Source: Microlunatus capsulatus (GTDB lineage: Bacteria > Actinomycetota > Actinomycetes > Propionibacteriales > Propionibacteriaceae). Taken from it: a stretch of 64,000 bases of DNA. Positions 15,835 to 23,215 of the stretch are shown here, one piece after another. A program made the translations under genes and the position numbers. The notes under the pieces are model-generated. The model worked only from the letters and a program-made list of their open reading frames with translations. It had not been told where the DNA came from and made no database searches. Each line of letters starts with the position of its first letter. Positions within the stretch are counted from its first letter, which is position 1. The stretch covers positions 3,534,001 through 3,598,000 of the forward strand of contig NZ_JAGIOB010000001.1 of NCBI RefSeq assembly GCF_017876495.1. The letters run 5' to 3'.

Positions 15835-16617
15835 TTGCTCTACTGGGTGCTGAAGTGGTTCCTCTTCGTCCCCGTGATCAAGGTGGCCTTCCGGCCCTGG
15901 ATCGAGGGGAAGGAGAACGTCCCGTCGTCGGGTCCGGCGATCCTGGTGGCCAACCACATCTCGGCGGGCGACACCTACCTGATCCCCGCGCTGATCCCGC
16001 GGCGGCTCACCTTCCCGGCCAAGGCCGAGGCCTTCGCGGGCACCGGCCTGCGGGGGCGCGTGCTCAAGTGGTTCCTGGAGGGCGTCGGCATGCTGCCCCT
16101 CGACCGCTCCGGCGGCCGGGCCAGCGCCACGAGCATGACCGGCGTGCTGGGCGTGCTGGAGCGCGGCGACCTGCTGGGCATCTTCCCCGAGGGCACCCGC
16201 TCGCCCGACGGCCGGCTGCACAAGGGCAAGACGGGCGTCGCCCGGCTGGTGCTGCAGGCGCGCGTGCCGGTGCTCCCGATCGGCGTGGTGGACACGCAGT
16301 TCGTCCGCCTGCCGCTGCTCGGCATTCCGGTGATGCGCCGGCCCGGTGTCCGCATCGGCGAGCCGCTGGACTTCGACCGCTACGCCGGCGCGGGCAACGA
16401 CCGCGACGTGCTGCGGTACGTGACGGACGAGATCATGGCGGCGGTCCAGGAGCTCTCGGGCCAGACCTACGTCGACGCCTACGCCTCCTCGGTGAAGAGC
16501 GCGGCCGCCGAGGGCCGGGTCTTCGAGACCACCGTGCTGGAGCGGCCCGGCGCCGGCCGTCCCGTGCCGCCGGTCCCGGCCCCGCTGCCTCCGGTGGACG
16601 AGCAGGTCCACCCGTGA
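15835..16617 (+). CDS. PlsC-family 1-acylglycerol-3-phosphate acyltransferase
   Basis: 260 residues from TTG 15835, with GGAGG five bases upstream. The start is supported by how tightly the PlsC domain begins. The catalytic HX4D is NHISAGD, and the acyl-acceptor motif is FPEGTRS; GVARLVLQARVPVLPIGVV is the fourth conserved block. The enzyme acylates lysophosphatidic acid or a related lipid at the membrane. The C-terminus is a Pro-rich tail. It is the first of a tandem pair, 10 bases before the next acyltransferase. Confidence 0.93.
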   Translation: MLYWVLKWFLFVPVIKVAFRPWIEGKENVPSSGPAILVANHISAGDTYLIPALIPRRLTFPAKAEAFAGTGLRGRVLKWFLEGVGMLPLDRSGGRASATSMTGVLGVLERGDLLGIFPEGTRSPDGRLHKGKTGVARLVLQARVPVLPIGVVDTQFVRLPLLGIPVMRRPGVRIGEPLDFDRYAGAGNDRDVLRYVTDEIMAAVQELSGQTYVDAYASSVKSAAAEGRVFETTVLERPGAGRPVPPVPAPLPPVDEQVHP

Positions 16618-16627
16618 GCAGGACGCC

Positions 16628-17491
16628 GTGAGCCGCAGCGCCCGCGCGGACGGCCCCGCCGCCGGCGAGCCCGGCGGGGACGACCCGGCCGCGCCGCCGC
16701 CCACGGACCTGGTCTCGGTCTCGGCCGACGGCCGGGTGAGCCTGGAGCGCGGTCGCGGCGGCGGTCGCGGCATCTACTGGGTGCTGAAGAACGTCCTGCT
16801 CGGCCCCGCCATCGACAAGATCTTCCGGCCGGTGGCCGAGGGCGTGGAGAACGTCCCCAGCACGGGCCCGGCCATCCTGGCCAGCAACCACCTGTCCTTC
16901 GCCGACTGGCTGTTCATGCCGCTGGTCCTCGACCGCCGGGTGACCTTCGTGGCCAAGTCCGACTACTTCACCGGCGTCGGGGTCAAGGGCTGGGCGCAGC
17001 GCCGCTTCTTCGCCGGCACCGGCCAGGTGCCGATCGACCGCACCGGCGGTCGCGCCAGCGAGGGCGCCCTGCGGGCCGGGCTCAAGGTGCTGGAGCGCGG
17101 CGAGCTCTTCGGCATCTACCCCGAGGGCACCCGCAGCCACGACGGCCGGCTCTACAAGGGCCGGACCGGCGTCGCCCGGATGGCCCTGCTGGCCAAGGTG
17201 CCGGTGATCCCCACCGCGGTGATCGGCACCGACGTCATCGCGCCCCCGGGCAAGATCATCACCAAGATCGTCAGCCCGACCGTCCGGTTCGGCACGCCGC
17301 TGGACTTCTCGCGCTACGAGGGCATGGAGGGCGACCGCTTCATCCTGCGCTCGGTCACCGACGAGATCATGTACGCGATCATGGAGCTCTCCGGCCAGGA
17401 GTACGTCGACCTCTACGCCCCGGCGGCGAAGGAGGCCGCGGCCCGCGAGGCGGCGGCGGCGGAGCGGGACGAGATCTCCCCGCAGGCCTGA
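16628..17491 (+). CDS. PlsC-family acyltransferase, second of a tandem pair
   Basis: 287 residues from GTG 16628. A Gly/Pro/Ala-rich N-terminal extension of about 45 residues precedes the domain. HX4D is NHLSFAD and the second motif YPEGTRS. The two adjacent proteins are clearly paralogous (both have VENVPSxGPAILxxNH and LSGQxYVD patterns), so they arose by duplication but have diverged. The C-terminus is rich in Ala, Glu and Arg. Mycobacteria have a PlsC gene in the matching position (Rv2182c, from memory). Confidence 0.93.
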   Translation: MSRSARADGPAAGEPGGDDPAAPPPTDLVSVSADGRVSLERGRGGGRGIYWVLKNVLLGPAIDKIFRPVAEGVENVPSTGPAILASNHLSFADWLFMPLVLDRRVTFVAKSDYFTGVGVKGWAQRRFFAGTGQVPIDRTGGRASEGALRAGLKVLERGELFGIYPEGTRSHDGRLYKGRTGVARMALLAKVPVIPTAVIGTDVIAPPGKIITKIVSPTVRFGTPLDFSRYEGMEGDRFILRSVTDEIMYAIMELSGQEYVDLYAPAAKEAAAREAAAAERDEISPQA

Positions 17492-17533
17492 GCGTTCGCC
17501 CCGGCCGGGCCCCCGGGACGGCGACGCTGGCCG

Positions 17534-17539
17534 TAGGGT
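17534..17539 (+). promoter_or_regulatory. Leaderless -10 element (TAGGGT) of the stressosome operon
   Basis: The hexamer ends six bases before ATG 17546. No clear TTGACA-like -35 box is visible, so self-activation by the encoded sigma factor is possible. Confidence 0.55.
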
Positions 17540-17545
17540 GCGGCC

Positions 17546-18631
17546 ATGGGGGCGACGGAGGTGCTCGAGGCGCTGCCCGGCCCCGACGAGGGTCCGGGCG
17601 TCGCGGCGCTGCTCCCGCTGGTCCGACGGATCGTCCACGCCCGGGTGCAGGACAAGGCCGCGGCCGAGGACCTCGTCCAGGAGACCCTGGTCCGGGTGCT
17701 CGCCGCCGCCGACCGCGTGGAGCCCGGGATGCTCGAGCCGTACGCCATCGTCACGGCCCGCAACGTCGTCGCCTCGATGTGGAAGGAGCGGGACCGGCAC
17801 CGCCGCAACGTGCACCGGGTCGTCGACCTGGTGCCGGTGGAGGCCCCCGACGCCGACCTGCTGCGCGAGGAGGAGCGGGGCGCCGTCGCCGCCGCCCTGG
17901 ACCGGCTGAGCGAGCGCGAGCGGCGCACCCTGCTGGCCCACGAGGTGGCCGGCCAGGACACCCGTTCCCTCGGCTCCGAGCTGGGGCTCTCGGCCGGGGC
18001 CGTCGCGGCCCAGCTGAACCGCAGCCGCGCGAGGCTGCGGGTGGAGTACCTGCTGCAGCTGCAGGACGAGGAGCCGCCGACCGGGCGCTGCCGCCCGGTG
18101 CTGTTCGCGCTCTCCCTCGGCGACCGGCGGCGCCAGCGCGAGCTGGATGCCGCGCGCCACCTGCTGGAGTGCGTCTTCTGCGCCGGTCTGAGCGAGCCGC
18201 TGCTGGAGCGCTCGCCGGACGCCGGGACGGTCGTGACCGTCCGCATCGAGGCCGACCCGGACATCGTCGCGGCCCGCCGGGCGGCGCGCGAGCTGGCCGC
18301 CCGCATCGGGTTCTCCCGCACCGACCTCACCCTCGTCGCGACCGCGGTCTCGGAGATCGCCCGCAACATCGTGCGCTTCGCCGGCCGGGGCGAGGTCGTG
18401 GTAGAGCTCCTGGAGCAGCCGCGGCCGGGGGTGCGGGTGACGGCCCGTGACGTCGGGCCCGGCATCGCCGACGTCGAGCGGGCGCTCGCCGACGGCTACA
18501 GCACCTACCACGGGCTCGGCCTCGGACTGCCCGGCGCCCGCCGGCTGATGGACGAGTTCGCCGTCGTCTCCGAGGTCGACCGCGGCACCACGGTGACCAT
18601 GACCAAGTGGAAGAAGGAAGGGACCGCATGA
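17546..18631 (+). CDS. ECF-like sigma factor fused to an RsbT-type anti-sigma kinase
   Basis: 361 residues, three parts. Residues 22-87 are sigma region 2 (EDLVQETLVRVLAAAD...ARNVVASMWKERDRHRR) and 112-168 sigma region 4 (LSERERRTLLAHEV...SLGSELGLSAGAVAAQLNRSR). The linker holds His205-x3-Cys209-x2-Cys212, the zinc pattern of ZAS anti-sigma factors. Residues 227-355 are a complete RsbT-like HATPase: SEIARNIVRFAG (N box), DVGPGI (G1) and GLGLGLPGARRLMDEF (G2). RsbT is normally a separate kinase of about 133 residues that phosphorylates RsbR and RsbS. Here the stressosome would hold a sigma factor directly. ATGA overlap couples it to rsbR; a TAGGGT leaderless promoter lies six bases upstream. 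Confidence 0.92.
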   Translation: MGATEVLEALPGPDEGPGVAALLPLVRRIVHARVQDKAAAEDLVQETLVRVLAAADRVEPGMLEPYAIVTARNVVASMWKERDRHRRNVHRVVDLVPVEAPDADLLREEERGAVAAALDRLSERERRTLLAHEVAGQDTRSLGSELGLSAGAVAAQLNRSRARLRVEYLLQLQDEEPPTGRCRPVLFALSLGDRRRQRELDAARHLLECVFCAGLSEPLLERSPDAGTVVTVRIEADPDIVAARRAARELAARIGFSRTDLTLVATAVSEIARNIVRFAGRGEVVVELLEQPRPGVRVTARDVGPGIADVERALADGYSTYHGLGLGLPGARRLMDEFAVVSEVDRGTTVTMTKWKKEGTA

Positions 18632-19518
18632 ACGAGTCGGACACCGGAGCGGTGGAGTTCGCGGCCCTCGACCGGGAGGACGAGGAGCAGCTGCTGCCCC
18701 AGCTGGTCGCGCACCTGCGCGAGCACCGCAGCCGGCTCCGGCAGGAGTGGTCGGGCCGCATCCAGGACTCCCACCTGCTGAGCTCGATGACGCCGCAGGA
18801 GGTCGGGGCGGAGACCACCTCGGTCTACGACAACTACGTCGAGGTGCTCGAGACCGGCAGCGTCGAGGCCCTGCAGCACTACGCGCGCGACCTCTCGGAG
18901 CGGATCATCCCGCGCGGCGTCGAGACCCACGAGGTCGTCGGCATCGTGCTCCTGCTGCGCGACGTGCTGGCCCGCTCGCTGTTCGAGAAGTACCAGGACG
19001 ACTTCGACCTGCTCAACCGCGTCCTGGACGCCTACGAGCCCGCCGCCAACCGGATCGCCAACACCGTGGCGGTGAGCTTCGTCGACGAGCGCGAGCGGGT
19101 GATCCGCCAGCAGCAGGACTCGATCCGGGAGCTCTCGACGCCGGTGCTGCCGGTCCGCGAGCGGCTGCTGATCCTGCCGATCATCGGGGTGCTCGACACC
19201 GAGCGCGCCCGCCAGCTGACCGAGCAGCTGCTGCGGGGCATCCGCACCCACCGGGCGAAGGTCGTCGTCATCGACATCACCGGCGCCCCGGACGTGGACG
19301 AGGCGGTCGCCAACCACCTGGTGCGCACCGTGGACGCCTCCCGGCTGATGGGCGCCAGCGTCATCATCACCGGCCTGTCGCCCGAGATCGCGCAGACCCT
19401 GGTCACCATCGGCGTCGACCTCAGCAAGATGAACACGATCGGGGACCTGCAGGGCGGGCTCGAGGAGGCGGAGCGGCTGCTCGGCTTCACCGTGACCCGC
19501 GCGGACGGCTCGCCGTGA
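18628..19518 (+). CDS. rsbR: RsbR-type stressosome scaffold protein
   Basis: 296 residues. The N-terminal part (about 20-150) is an all-helical sensory domain of the RsbR/RsbRD kind. The joining helix VIRQQQDSIRELSTPVLPV leads into a C-terminal STAS domain (about 168-288). RsbR proteins form, with RsbS, the large cytoplasmic stressosome that sequesters RsbT. In the STAS domain the residue after Asp224, which aligns with Ser62 of the neighbouring RsbS, is Glu225, so this site cannot be phosphorylated and may mimic the phosphorylated state. Thr171 in ELSTPV remains. It overlaps the preceding and following genes by four bases each. Confidence 0.9.
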   Translation: MNESDTGAVEFAALDREDEEQLLPQLVAHLREHRSRLRQEWSGRIQDSHLLSSMTPQEVGAETTSVYDNYVEVLETGSVEALQHYARDLSERIIPRGVETHEVVGIVLLLRDVLARSLFEKYQDDFDLLNRVLDAYEPAANRIANTVAVSFVDERERVIRQQQDSIRELSTPVLPVRERLLILPIIGVLDTERARQLTEQLLRGIRTHRAKVVVIDITGAPDVDEAVANHLVRTVDASRLMGASVIITGLSPEIAQTLVTIGVDLSKMNTIGDLQGGLEEAERLLGFTVTRADGSP

Positions 19519-19928
19519 CCGACACCGGGCCGGCCCTGGTCTCGATCCTGCGCCAGGGCTCCCAGCTGATCGCCTCCATCCACACCGCCCTGGACGACAC
19601 CCAGATGGTGCGGTTCCAGCAGGACCTCGTCCACCAGATCGGGGAGCACCGGGCCCGCGGGGTCGTCATCGACGTCGCGGCCCTGGACGTGCTGGACTCC
19701 TTCGGCTCCCGGACCCTCCGCGACATCGCGGAGATGGCCCGGCTGCGGGGGGCGGCGACGGTGATCGTCGGGATCCAGCCGGAGGTGGCCTTCACGATGG
19801 TGACGCTCGGGATGGACACCGGGAGCGTGCACACCGCGCTCGACCTGGAGGAGGGCCTGGCCTACCTGGGCGGCGCGGGCGGCCAGCCCTCCACCGCGGC
19901 GCGGGCGCGCTCCGCGCAGCGTCGATGA
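19515..19928 (+). CDS. rsbS: RsbS-type STAS protein
   Basis: 137 residues from GTG 19515 (GTGA overlap with rsbR). A single STAS domain, with the phosphorylation site intact: DVLDSFGSRTL places Ser62 where B. subtilis RsbS has Ser59. The kinase domain encoded two genes upstream would phosphorylate this Ser to open the complex. The last 17 residues are a basic tail (about 121-137) beyond the usual RsbS length. Confidence 0.9.
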   Translation: MTDTGPALVSILRQGSQLIASIHTALDDTQMVRFQQDLVHQIGEHRARGVVIDVAALDVLDSFGSRTLRDIAEMARLRGAATVIVGIQPEVAFTMVTLGMDTGSVHTALDLEEGLAYLGGAGGQPSTAARARSAQRR

Positions 19929-20215
19929 CGGGTCTCGACGACCTCCGGCGCGACTACCGCGCGGCCTTCCTGCGCTACCTGCCCCGCCGCGAGGAGGCTC
20001 CGCTGCGCGCCGGCTACGAGATCGGCCGGGCGGCGGTGGTGGACGGGCTGAGCATCCTCGACCTCGCGCAGGTCCACCACGAGGTGCTGCTCGAGGTCAT
20101 CAGCACCACCCGGCGCGAGGAGCTCGGCGACGTCGCGTCGGCGGCCTCGGAGTTCCTCGTCGAGGTGCTGGCCACCTACGACATGGCCCAGCGGGGGCTG
20201 CGCCCCGGCCCCTGA
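19925..20215 (+). CDS. Stand-alone RsbU N-terminal domain protein
   Basis: 96 residues, coupled to rsbS by ATGA. The whole protein matches in style the N-terminal helical domain of the phosphatase RsbU (LRAGYEIGRAAVVDGLSILDLAQVHHEVL...FLVEVLATYDMAQRGLR), the part that docks on RsbT. There is no PP2C phosphatase domain in the gene or just downstream. In RsbU this domain receives free RsbT. Without the phosphatase, this protein may act as an alternative partner or anchor for the sigma-RsbT fusion. Family call is by eye. Confidence 0.75.
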   Translation: MTGLDDLRRDYRAAFLRYLPRREEAPLRAGYEIGRAAVVDGLSILDLAQVHHEVLLEVISTTRREELGDVASAASEFLVEVLATYDMAQRGLRPGP

Positions 20216-20574
20216 GAGCGCCGTCCGCCCGTCGTCCGGGCGTGCTCGGGGGGCCGGACGCCTCCGCACCCGGCGGATGACGCGGGCAGGACGCCCCGCA
20301 CGAGCGGCTCCCGGGCCCGGCCCGCGGCGCGCTCGCCGGACTGCTGCACCCGGCCCGCGTCATGCCGGACCGTCCGGGGCGTCTCCAGGGTGACGGCTCC
20401 ACCGCAGGGCGTGGTCCGGGGCGTGGGGAGCGTCCCCGTCGACCCGCCCGGCTGCGGTCCGGACCCGTCGACCCTGCGGCTGCGGGGCGCCGCGCGACCC
20501 CCTGACCGGCGCCCCGTGGCCGCAGCCAGCGAGCCGGCGCAGCCGCGTCGCCGCGACCCGAGAGAGAGACGCCG
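20216..20574 (+). other. 359-bp non-coding stretch with paired inverted repeats
   Basis: No gene is visible here. An 11-base perfect inverted repeat pairs 20277-20287 with 20353-20363, and a 9-base one pairs 20290-20298 with 20375-20383; the pairs cross, which would form a pseudoknot if transcribed. A 6-bp hairpin at 20226-20242, just after the stressosome operon, may end its transcript. The start of the next gene has GAGAGAGA just upstream. Confidence 0.4.
20226..20242 (+). terminator. Possible short hairpin terminator after the stressosome operon
   Basis: CGCCCG and CGGGCG pair around a five-base loop, 11 bases after the operon stop. No T-run follows, so this is only a candidate. Confidence 0.35.
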
Positions 20575-21429
20575 ATGTCCTGGTTCCCGGACGCCCTGCT
20601 GCCCGCGGGGCTCGACCGCTACGACGACGCCTGGCAGATGGTGCCCTTCTACCAGGGCCTCGTCGACCTGCCGCCCGACGTGCTGCTCGCGTCCTGGGCG
20701 GTGCCGCCCCGGCTGGACGACCCGCGCGCCGGCGCGGTGCAGGGTCCCGAGGCCTTCCAGGAGTACGTCCGCCGGACCCGGGACTGGCTCGCCCTCGTCG
20801 ACGCCGCCACCCGCCCGCTGGCCACCACGGCGACGGCGCTCCGCTCGGTGGAGGAGGTGATGCTCGACCCGGCGGCCGACGGCGGGCGGCAGGAGCTCGG
20901 CGCGGCGGTCGTCGCCGAGTGGGACGAGCAGCACCGGCTCACCGGCGTGCGGATCTACCACGGCGGGCCCCTGCGGCCGCCGGCCGAGCCGCACCTCCCG
21001 CAGCTGCCCGAGCCGCCGGCGCAGGAGCCGGACCTGCCGCTCTTCCTGCGGGAGCACCGCTGGGCGCTCGAGGGCGGCGAGGTGGACGACGTCCTCGACA
21101 CCTACGAGGACGACGCGGTGGTCGTCGTCCTCGACCGCGGCGTGGAGGTGCTGACGGGGCGCGAGGAGCTCCGCCGGCTGCACGCCGCGCCGGCGCTGCC
21201 CGGGGCACCGGCCCGGCCCCGGATCTGCACCGTCACCGACGACGGCCACAGCTGCGCGGTGGAGGACCGGCTCGCCCCCGACGGGGCCGGCCCGCCGACC
21301 CGGGCCCGGGTGGTCGTCTACGAGCGGGGTCGGCACGGCCGGATCGCCCACGAGCGCCGATACGTCATGTCGGCCCCGCTCGCCGGTCCGCTCGGCACCG
21401 CGGCCGGCGGAGGGCCGAGCGGTGGATGA
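20575..21429 (+). CDS. Double SnoaL-like (NTF2-fold) protein
   Basis: 284 residues from ATG 20575. Two NTF2-like halves can be seen. The N-terminal half (about 1-130) reads DAWQMVPFYQGLVDLP, with beta-rich VVAEWDEQHRLTGVRIYHG at its end. The C-terminal half (about 155-270) has the clearer SnoaL pattern FLREHRWALEGGEVDDVLDT, VLTGREELRRLH and RVVVYERGRHGRIAHERRY. A Pro-rich linker joins them. Such folds bind small hydrophobic molecules, often as isomerases or hydrolases; no catalytic set stands out. The stop overlaps the next start. Confidence 0.7.
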   Translation: MSWFPDALLPAGLDRYDDAWQMVPFYQGLVDLPPDVLLASWAVPPRLDDPRAGAVQGPEAFQEYVRRTRDWLALVDAATRPLATTATALRSVEEVMLDPAADGGRQELGAAVVAEWDEQHRLTGVRIYHGGPLRPPAEPHLPQLPEPPAQEPDLPLFLREHRWALEGGEVDDVLDTYEDDAVVVVLDRGVEVLTGREELRRLHAAPALPGAPARPRICTVTDDGHSCAVEDRLAPDGAGPPTRARVVVYERGRHGRIAHERRYVMSAPLAGPLGTAAGGGPSGG

Positions 21430-21778
21430 CGACGACCTGCGGACCGACCTCGTCCGCCTCTACGCCGCGGACGAGGGCGTCCGGTGCCCGCTCGTCCCGG
21501 CGCCGGGGACGACCCCGCCGCAGGACCTGCCCGCGCTCCGGGTCCGCTGCCGCGCGGCCGTGCAGACGCGGCTGGTGGCCGACGCGGCCGGGCTGCGGGT
21601 CTGGCTGGCCCGGACGGCGCGCGAGGTCTTCCTCAGCGAGCCGGCGCTCCGCCGCGGCCTCGGGGTGGAGGACGTCGCCGAGTTCTGGGGCTGGTTCGAC
21701 CGCGCGCTGTGGTCGGCCCCGGAAGGGGCCGGTGCCGGCCGTGACCAGCGCCCGGCCGCCTGGGCGCCCACCCCCTGA
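21422..21778 (+). CDS. Small soluble protein of unknown function
   Basis: 118 residues from GTG 21422, behind GGAGGG and overlapping the NTF2-like gene by eight bases, so the two are probably co-translated. Acidic start (DDDDLRTDLVRLYAADEG), then mixed helices with an aromatic patch FWGWFDRALW near residues 88-97. No family is recognised. The aroG promoter follows directly after its stop. Confidence 0.6.
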   Translation: MDDDDLRTDLVRLYAADEGVRCPLVPAPGTTPPQDLPALRVRCRAAVQTRLVADAAGLRVWLARTAREVFLSEPALRRGLGVEDVAEFWGWFDRALWSAPEGAGAGRDQRPAAWAPTP

Positions 21779-21808
21779 CAAAGGCGAGCCGGTCCCGCCC
21801 CCGGCGTC

Positions 21809-21814
21809 TAGAGT
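21809..21814 (+). promoter_or_regulatory. Leaderless -10 element (TAGAGT) of aroG
   Basis: The hexamer ends six bases before ATG 21821; it directly abuts the alternative GTG at 21815, which argues for the ATG. Confidence 0.6.
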
Positions 21815-21820
21815 GTGCGG

Positions 21821-23215
21821 ATGCTCGATGCGTCCCCGGTCCCCTCGCTGGACGAGCTGCATGCTCTGAACCCGCTCCAGCAGCCGACCTATGCCGACGA
21901 GGGCGCGCTCGCCGACGTCATCGCCAAGCTGCGCACGCTGCCCCCGCTGGTCTTCGCCGGCGAGTGCGACGACCTGCGCACCAAGATGGCCAGCGTCGCG
22001 GCGGGGGAGGCCTTCCTGCTGCAGGGCGGCGACTGCGCCGAGACCTTCGAGGGCGTGACGGCCGACAACATCCAGAACAAGCTGCGCACGCTGCTCTCCA
22101 TGGCCGTCGTGCTGACCTACGCCGCGCAGGTGCCGATCGTCAAGGTCGGCCGGATGGCCGGCCAGTACGCCAAGCCGCGCAGCTCCGGCACCGAGACCCG
22201 CGACGGCGTCAGCCTGCCGGCCTACCGCGGTGACGCCGTCAACGGCTTCGCCTTCAGCCCCGAGTCGCGCGAGCCGGACCCGCAGCGGCTGCTCGGGGTC
22301 TACAACGCCTCCTCGGCGACGCTGAACCTCACCCGCGCCTTCGTCACCGGCGGCTTCGCCCACCTGCGCCGGGTGCACAGCTGGAACGCCAACTTCGTCC
22401 TCAGCTCCGGCGCGGGAGTCCAGTACCAGAACCTGGCCGACGAGATCGACCGCGCGCTGGCCTTCATGGTGGCCTGCGGCATCGACGACGACGCCTTCCG
22501 CACCGTCGACTTCTACTCCAGCCACGAGGCGCTGGTCATGGAGTACGAGCACGCGCTGACCCGGATCGACTCCCGCACCCGGCAGCCCTACGGCACCTCC
22601 GGCCACTTCCTGTGGATCGGGGAGCGCACCCGCCAGCTGGACGGCGCCCACGTCGAGCTGATGCGGCACATCCGCAACCCGCTGGGGGTCAAGCTCGGCC
22701 CGACGACGACGGCCGACACCGCGCTGGAGCTGGCCGACCGGCTCGACCCCGACCACGAGCCCGGCCGGATCACCTTCATCACCCGGATGGGTGCGGGCAA
22801 GGTGCGGGAGGTGCTGCCCGAGGTCGTCGCCAAGGTGACGGCCAGCGGTCGCCAGGTGGCCTGGGTCTGCGACCCGATGCACGGCAACACCTTCGAGGCC
22901 CGCAACGGCTACAAGACCCGGGCGTTCTCCGACGTCGTCGAGGAGCTCAACGGCTTCTTCGACGTCCACGAGGAGCTGGGCACCTGGCCGGGCGGCGTGC
23001 ACGTCGAGCTCACCGGTGACGACGTCACCGAGTGCGTCGGCGGAAGCGACGACCTCGTCGAGGCCGACCTGGTGAACCGGTACGAGACGCTCTGCGACCC
23101 CCGGCTCAACCGCAACCAGTCCCTGGAGCTCGCGTTCCTGGTGGCCGAGCGGCTCACCACCGGCCGGATCCGCCGGGCCAAGGCCGTCCAGGCCTTCCCC
23201 GCCGTCCCGGTCTGA
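21821..23215 (+). CDS. aroG: Class II 3-deoxy-7-phosphoheptulonate (DAHP) synthase
   Basis: 464 residues, normal for class II enzymes. It joins phosphoenolpyruvate and erythrose 4-phosphate, the first step of the shikimate pathway. The class II hallmarks are present: LQGGDCAETFEG with the metal-binding Cys, GRMAGQYAKPRSS, HFLWIGERTRQLDGAHVE, and CDPMHGNTFE. The start is ATG 21821, six bases after TAGAGT; GTG 21815 is possible but overlaps the expected transcription start. M. tuberculosis has aroG (Rv2178c) in the same neighbourhood (from memory). Confidence 0.97.
   Translation: MLDASPVPSLDELHALNPLQQPTYADEGALADVIAKLRTLPPLVFAGECDDLRTKMASVAAGEAFLLQGGDCAETFEGVTADNIQNKLRTLLSMAVVLTYAAQVPIVKVGRMAGQYAKPRSSGTETRDGVSLPAYRGDAVNGFAFSPESREPDPQRLLGVYNASSATLNLTRAFVTGGFAHLRRVHSWNANFVLSSGAGVQYQNLADEIDRALAFMVACGIDDDAFRTVDFYSSHEALVMEYEHALTRIDSRTRQPYGTSGHFLWIGERTRQLDGAHVELMRHIRNPLGVKLGPTTTADTALELADRLDPDHEPGRITFITRMGAGKVREVLPEVVAKVTASGRQVAWVCDPMHGNTFEARNGYKTRAFSDVVEELNGFFDVHEELGTWPGGVHVELTGDDVTECVGGSDDLVEADLVNRYETLCDPRLNRNQSLELAFLVAERLTTGRIRRAKAVQAFPAVPV

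Follow-up and report, generated by a model that had tools for sequence, protein, structure and literature searches.

What would a stressosome control if the kinase that it holds and releases were itself joined to a sigma factor? The question is raised by a four-gene operon of Microlunatus capsulatus, whose genome is a single 4.4-Mb contig; the operon occupies positions 17546-20215, on the plus strand, of a 64-kb stretch of that contig (the window, to which all DNA coordinates refer). In known stressosome systems a sigma factor is reached via RsbU, RsbV and RsbW, or phosphatases, cyclases or histidine kinases are driven via RsbU_N domains. The M. capsulatus operon encodes, in this order, a 361-residue fusion of an extracytoplasmic function (ECF) sigma factor with RsbT (17546-18631), RsbR (18628-19518), RsbS (19515-19928) and a 96-residue protein that is an RsbU_N domain alone (19925-20215), and consecutive genes share four-base overlaps. 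The arrangement was first noticed in a first-pass annotation made from the sequence alone, and coordinates, frames and Pfam matches agree with it. The reading favoured here, at a probability of roughly 0.6, is that of a stressosome whose released partner would be the sigma factor itself, bypassing the RsbU phosphatase, RsbV and RsbW.

The fusion is read in a single open frame and is conserved as a single protein. Its Pfam matches above curated cut-offs are Sigma70_r2 (PF04542; residues 20-84, 17603-17797, E = 7e-13), Sigma70_r4_2 (residues 113-164, 17882-18037, E = 1e-7) and HATPase_c_2 (residues 236-354, E = 6e-14); TIGR02937 also matches above its cut-off (E = 2.5e-20). Regions 2 and 4 are present and region 3 is absent according to Pfam, TIGR02937 and fold comparison, as is characteristic of ECF sigma factors, and region 2 has a fold like that of M. 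tuberculosis ECF sigma factors. The RsbT-type kinase domain (residues 229-357, 18230-18616) belongs to the RsbT clade described below and has an intact ATP site, with residues E270, N274, D302, G304 and G306 invariant across an alignment of the window with 12 homologues (13 rows); rather than free-standing, it is joined behind the sigma regions in the window and in the aligned homologues. The first-pass annotation had described sigma regions followed by a HATPase domain, and both are there, but a third domain between them (residues 173 to 228 approximately, 18062-18229) had been overlooked.

This middle domain, a putative zinc-binding domain of the anti-sigma kind, contains the motif C182-x22-H205-x3-C209-x2-C212, invariant in 13/13 rows, which corresponds to the H-x3-C-x2-C motif with an upstream Cys/His ligand of zinc-binding anti-sigma (ZAS, zf-HC2) domains. 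It is homologous to the middle domain of P0005-P0007, three further ECF proteins from the class (hhalign, E = 9e-25). The Pfam scan gave no zf-HC2 match to it and the resemblance is weak: hhalign against seven zf-HC2 stretches of the own genome gave 17% when the fusion set was used, 45% when the two sets were combined and 80% with the three ECF proteins alone. P0005-P0007 (L098:958-2586, minus strand; L110:1477-2709; L095:1036-2700) have, by eye, a hydrophobic segment resembling a membrane anchor and a C-terminal part where the fusion has RsbT. For ECF48, ECF52 and ECF53, too, a Cys/His domain linked to both an ECF sigma factor and a membrane anchor is described (PMC8999054, in part). By its sequence, the fusion resembles a Cys/His-type ECF protein whose anchor and tail have been swapped for RsbT, and the middle domain may serve as a second, intramolecular lock on sigma.

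The remaining genes make up an RsbRST module in which RsbT is encoded as the fusion domain. Both the second and third proteins have STAS matches above the Pfam cut-off; RsbS is a STAS domain alone, and RsbR has in addition an N-terminal region that comes near RsbRD_N but falls below the cut-off in the window (E = 0.003), whereas its G071 homologue, at 27.8 bits, passes the cut-off of 24.3 bits. The fourth protein matches RsbU_N (E = 2.8e-14) and has no PP2C domain, so that it is not a full RsbU, and the absence of the phosphatase is shared by all 15 fusion operons aligned. No RsbU_N-type phosphatase was found elsewhere in the own genome, in which the only SpoIIE-type phosphatase found is a 661-residue PAS-SpoIIE-HATPase-STAS protein without RsbU_N (L176:718-2703, minus strand), apparently a partner-switching circuit of its own within one chain. 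Because the sole SpoIIE phosphatase found is without RsbU_N and the RsbU of the operon is reduced to its RsbT-binding domain, freed RsbT would be without its usual phosphatase target.

RsbR is altered in a further respect. The RsbS phosphosite (S62 in the window) is retained as an Asp-Ser pair in 19/19 fusion loci and 35/35 stand-alone loci, and is thus a phosphorylatable serine of the S59 type. At the RsbR position aligned with it, the 19 readable fusion operons (two loci being left out of the count, L135, which is cut, and L138, which is without RsbR) have Glu in 16 cases, including E225 of the window, and Gln, His and Ala in one each; stand-alone systems have Ser or Thr in 34 of 35 and Gln in the remaining one. 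We take this position to be that of T171 in B. subtilis, on the strength of the RsbR/RsbS alignment and a known motif. A phosphorylatable Thr or Ser of the T171 type is thus missing from the RsbR proteins of the fusion operons, and because of this replacement the operon is classed as a variant and not as an ordinary RsbRST member. T171 is phosphorylated already without stress, which is thought to be a prerequisite (PMC3944199, in part). A permanently primed core would fit a fixed acidic residue here.

From these sequences we infer that sigma is held by RsbS and RsbR, released by phosphorylation, and able to recognize a promoter. The sensing core would consist of RsbR and RsbS and, by binding the RsbT domain, would keep sigma in store; upon stress, by analogy with Bacillus, the RsbT domain would phosphorylate S62 of RsbS and the whole fusion would leave. 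The released fusion would bind the RsbU_N protein. This protein probably has a non-enzymatic role, as a competitor of RsbS, and would either assist in unlocking sigma from the middle domain, the probable second lock, or act as a buffer for sigma. Free sigma would direct RNA polymerase to CGTCAT-N14-GGNSTCTYC beside the operon and so switch on a gene for a small secreted protein; a diverged copy would probably place the operon, too, under its control in four genomes that belong to one genus. RsbU phosphatase, RsbV and RsbW would be dispensable. The first-pass annotation had already proposed this bypass, and the RsbT-clade HATPase, the RsbU_N protein without phosphatase and the failure to find an RsbU_N-type phosphatase in the genome speak for it, but its version left the Cys/His domain, the RsbU_N protein and the RsbR phosphosite uncovered. 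The retained RsbU_N protein is superfluous in a simple hold-and-release model.

The RsbU_N protein might instead be a true inhibitor, a stoichiometric anti-sigma factor that captures the released fusion and thereby imposes a threshold; sigma would then be held by the stressosome and by RsbU_N in turn. It is the last gene of the operon in 13 of the 13 relatives examined, always without an effector domain, and in G412 it directly follows the fusion with neither RsbR nor RsbS between; the N-terminal domain of B. subtilis RsbU binds RsbT, and the complex is predicted to be 2:2 (PMC12143880, in part). In known systems, however, binding of RsbT to RsbU_N activates the output, and we regard an inhibitory role as doubtful, if worth keeping in mind.

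A stressosome whose released partner is sigma also presupposes that the HATPase domain is an RsbT and not an RsbW- or SpoIIAB-like anti-sigma factor acting in cis; in that case it would clamp the sigma domain of its own chain, RsbS and RsbR would be the anti-anti-sigma factors that pull it off, and the stressosome would be an activator and not a store. This is unlikely in view of a tree of 80 HATPase rows (21 fusions, two of them fragments, 35 stand-alone RsbT and 24 second HATPases), from which RsbW and SpoIIAB of B. subtilis and the other HATPases of the own genome were left out: the fusion domains fall into a single clade (99/99) with the RsbT proteins of RsbRST operons, and the second HATPases, whose genes lie beside those for stand-alone RsbT, are outside it. 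Furthermore, RsbS and RsbR are of the stressosome type, the RsbT receptor RsbU_N has been kept, and a separate anti-sigma-like domain may already sit in the middle of the fusion.

On the HATPase tree the origin of the fusion requires one or two changes. The RsbR tree unites the RsbR proteins of fusion operons with those of G211 and family f7 in one clade (100/99), within which the fusion rows fall into two parts. RsbR of the window is about 80% identical to RsbR of G491, G726, G692 and G211, with lower identities for RsbS (56-59%) and RsbT (55-57%). These four stand-alone loci encode RsbR, RsbS and RsbT, then one more frame, then an RsbU_N protein, in agreement with the mycobacterial gene set described in PMC8115616. 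Pfam places SpoIIE in the extra frame of G726 (the RsbX position) and finds RsbU_N, PAS, SpoIIE and HATPase domains in its RsbU protein; in G211 it finds RsbU_N and SpoIIE.

A candidate recognition sequence accompanies many of the fusion operons. The 8-mer CATGACGC or its complement lies within 300 bp of the operon ends at 14 of 18 loci (1.3 expected) and extends to GACGCC-N14-ATGACGCG, the spacer being identical in well-kept copies; on the other strand it is best read as CGTCAT-N14-GG(N)(G/C)TC(T/A)(T/C)C. In the window, one promoter-like site (CGTCAT-N14-GGCGTCTCC, 20358-20386, plus strand) is directed downstream and a second (20257-20284, minus strand) has the opposite orientation, and the site at 20358 is the single match to the second form, with at most one mismatch, in the 4.4-Mb genome. 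Exact matches to the 14-base form in 17 genomes number eight (two each in G000 and G088, one each in G059, G071, G459 and G144), all at operon loci, the one in G144 being some 2.5 kb 3' of the operon on its contig; there are none in G336, G421 or G152, nor in the eight congeners without the fusion. CGTCAT-N14-GGNSTCTYC has five exact matches in 14 genomes: three beside the operon (G000, G059 and G071), a further one at another place in G071, and one within a coding frame of G098, a genome without the fusion.

The site precedes a small secreted-protein gene in G059, G071, G459 and Terrabacter/Terracoccus, and a divergent weak relative of that gene in G421; in G412, which did not contribute to the definition of the motif, an exact copy lies about 50 bp before a gene of the same kind. 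The likely secreted family of about 180 residues is found immediately 3' of the operon and site at L130:10151-10705, L138:1042-1608, L127:10828-11358 and L009:8887-9441, and its members in G071 and G059, both scanned, have no Pfam match above cut-off. It is the probable output gene. In G312, G319, G335 and G377, diverged copies of the site lie about 85 bp upstream of the operon itself.

The secreted-protein gene was not found in the 64-kb window or in 20 kb of G088, where the next frames are a SnoaL_2-like gene and a frame weakly like DUF7162. The SnoaL_2-like open frame of the window (20575-21429, plus strand, 3' of the promoter-like site), of which the sister G088 has a short N-terminal remnant, is a possible target in the own genome. 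Away from the operon, G319 has a site with one mismatch, with a counterpart in G377 (L180, L181), in front of a gene whose product has a likely membrane segment; this gene is possibly a second target. A large regulon finds no support: the loose pattern GACGCC-N13-16-ATGACG is about equally common in genomes with and without the fusion, and one-mismatch matches are at background.

The paired sites allow a more elaborate scheme, in which the stressosome would be a direct anti-sigma device storing many copies of sigma, and dimeric RsbU_N would bridge two released sigma-RsbT molecules so as to load RNA polymerase on both opposed promoters at once. The two sites are 85-128 bp apart in relatives, and only 0.003 of random sets are as extreme in helical phasing when 12 values are used, but phasing is not significant with the eight less redundant values (0.09); we give this scheme only a slim chance.

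Slimmer still is the chance that the sigma part is a decoy, a PhyR-like mimic that would titrate away an anti-sigma factor without ever joining RNA polymerase. Mimicry by sigma-like domains attached to signalling domains is known (PhyR; PMC8999054, in part), and the first Asp of the DAED motif is absent from 12 of 13 rows of the fusion. The match to Sigma70_r2 (7e-13) is, however, far better than that to PhyR_sigma2 (0.009, below cut-off), Pfam finds no receiver domain of the kind that PhyR has, region 4 is intact and strongly constrained, and the promoter-like motif described above stands beside many of the operons.

The fusion is shared by a range of actinobacterial relatives. A scan of genome contigs, whose figures are lower bounds, located at least 13 loci; among the matches listed there are at least eight whole fusions, in Terrabacter, Terracoccus, an Intrasporangiaceae member, Marmoricola, Nocardioides and Modestobacter, and five loci with the ECF-like part only. 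At the level of the order, 24 of 391 genomes have a match at E = 1e-25: ten have a whole fusion (the own genome included), G152 has an interrupted one, in G412 the match lies at a contig edge, and 12 have the RsbT part only. At the level of the class, 75 of 393 genomes have a match, comprising three whole fusions (the own genome included), three proteins with sigma and the middle domain, and 69 with the RsbT part only.

The homologues also answer whether the single protein proposed by the first-pass annotation is real. The junction is retained in all 13 aligned rows, one-contig assemblies (G000, G088, G059 and G071) among them, and RsbR, RsbS and RsbU_N follow in 13/13 relatives examined; the fusion is intact in 12 of these and its frame is interrupted in L022 (G152; also L075), a draft genome that is 83% complete. 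That a frameshift or misassembly joined two genes has a negligible probability, the one interrupted frame in a poor genome notwithstanding, since 12 homologues on different contigs and in different families are uninterrupted and the junction region is itself a conserved domain. The same gene order recurs in G319, G312, G335, G377, G336 and G459 (the G421 contig ends after the start of RsbR), and the overlaps between genes differ among relatives. Ratios of nonsynonymous to synonymous substitution (dN/dS) against G088 are 0.15 for sigma region 2, 0.03 for region 4, 0.12 for the middle domain and 0.07 for RsbT, and 0.11-0.19 by domain against G059, indicating that all domains of the fusion are under purifying selection. 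A second RsbS-like frame, 72% identical to RsbS of the window, lies 3' of the operon in a Nocardioides metagenome-assembled genome (L013:9301-9783). Many fusion genes have, by eye, a TANNNT hexamer a few bases 5' of the start codon (in the window CGTAGGGT, 17532-17539), which suggests leaderless transcripts. The sole match in an Rfam scan of 16600-21900 was one CRISPR repeat below threshold.

Several observations weigh against a stressosome that stores and releases a working sigma factor. The incomplete DAED motif has been mentioned, and the structure models have no more than moderate scores (pLDDT 65 and pTM 0.35; pLDDT 77 and pTM 0.51). In G412 the fusion adjoins RsbU_N (L138:1-960, on a contig that begins inside the fusion), and neither RsbR nor RsbS was found in the 8 kb of sequence covered. 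Two operons have Ala or His at the RsbR site, which can therefore do without a fixed negative charge. Crosstalk between the separate PAS-phosphatase-HATPase-STAS protein and an RsbW-like domain is conceivable. As regards the motif, the flanks that served to define it are also those in which it is enriched, its reading as -35 and -10 elements is based on spacing and gene orientation, and in many loci one copy is directed into the operon without an evident gene. A strict definition finds sites beside 11 of 19 operons and none beside eight (G144, G312, G319, G335, G377, L006, L008 and L013), all of which except L006 have diverged or distant copies.

The operon is flanked, outside the system, by a plsC acyltransferase gene (16628-17491, plus strand) and a class-II 3-deoxy-D-arabino-heptulosonate 7-phosphate (DAHP) synthase gene (21815-23215, plus strand), both confirmed by Pfam; two acyltransferase genes and the DAHP synthase gene are neighbours across the genus. 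The junction was compared in 14 of 20 congeners, as the distance between alignment ends, and measures 40-174 bp in nine of them and 0.9-4.5 kb in the other five. Because it holds only 40-174 bp in nine of 14, the operon looks inserted, as the first-pass annotation had supposed of its position between plsC and aroG. In G059 the operon is located elsewhere and the junction measures 141 bp, and among the loci of 20 relatives compared only the sister G088 shares the location of the window. A search of 72,556 plasmid records revealed no relative at E = 1e-20.

The predicted system can be compared with several known ones. With the RsbRST systems of mycobacteria and Bacillus, which have RsbX and a phosphatase with RsbU_N, the operon has RsbR, RsbS, RsbT and RsbU_N in common; it differs in that RsbT is fused behind sigma and its gene comes first, that there is no gene for an RsbX-type phosphatase, that its RsbU lacks SpoIIE (and the PAS and HATPase domains of G726), and that the first phosphosite of RsbR is replaced. 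ECF48, ECF52 and ECF53, with SCO4117, likewise have sigma regions 2 and 4 followed by a Cys/His domain in cis, by the description in part of PMC8999054, whereas the fusion has an RsbT kinase domain in place of their anchor and C-terminal part. PhyR of the PhyR-NepR-EcfG system also combines an ECF-like region with a signalling domain, but it mimics sigma and carries a receiver domain, whereas the sigma region of the window appears functional by its sequence and is partnered by the RsbT kinase domain.

A further comparison is with systems coupled through RsbU_N, in which, as proposed for the window, RsbT is released from the stressosome and RsbU_N is its receptor. The N-terminal domain of B. 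subtilis RsbU is a dimer that binds RsbT, and known outputs attached to such domains are the RsbU phosphatase, a GGDEF enzyme of Moorella and histidine kinases of some Proteobacteria (PMC12143880, in part). In those systems the output is carried by RsbU_N and RsbT is free, whereas in the window the sigma output is carried by RsbT and RsbU_N is free. The attachment of the output to RsbT instead of RsbU_N is the novelty. No description of an RsbT-sigma fusion was found among the papers listed by searches of an open-licence library, judged by title and the opening of the abstract, and a term search of two ECF reviews met no mention of RsbT, stressosome or HATPase, with a prior listing in the main ECF classification still conceivable.

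If the proposed reading is true, the relay shrinks to one binding event and the sensor controls transcription in one step. The quantitative effect of RsbT release, a long-standing question, would then be readable directly as transcription. The operon also isolates the role of RsbU_N from any attached enzyme, and it shows stressosomes in which the site phosphorylated before stress in B. subtilis is occupied by a fixed residue, mostly Glu.

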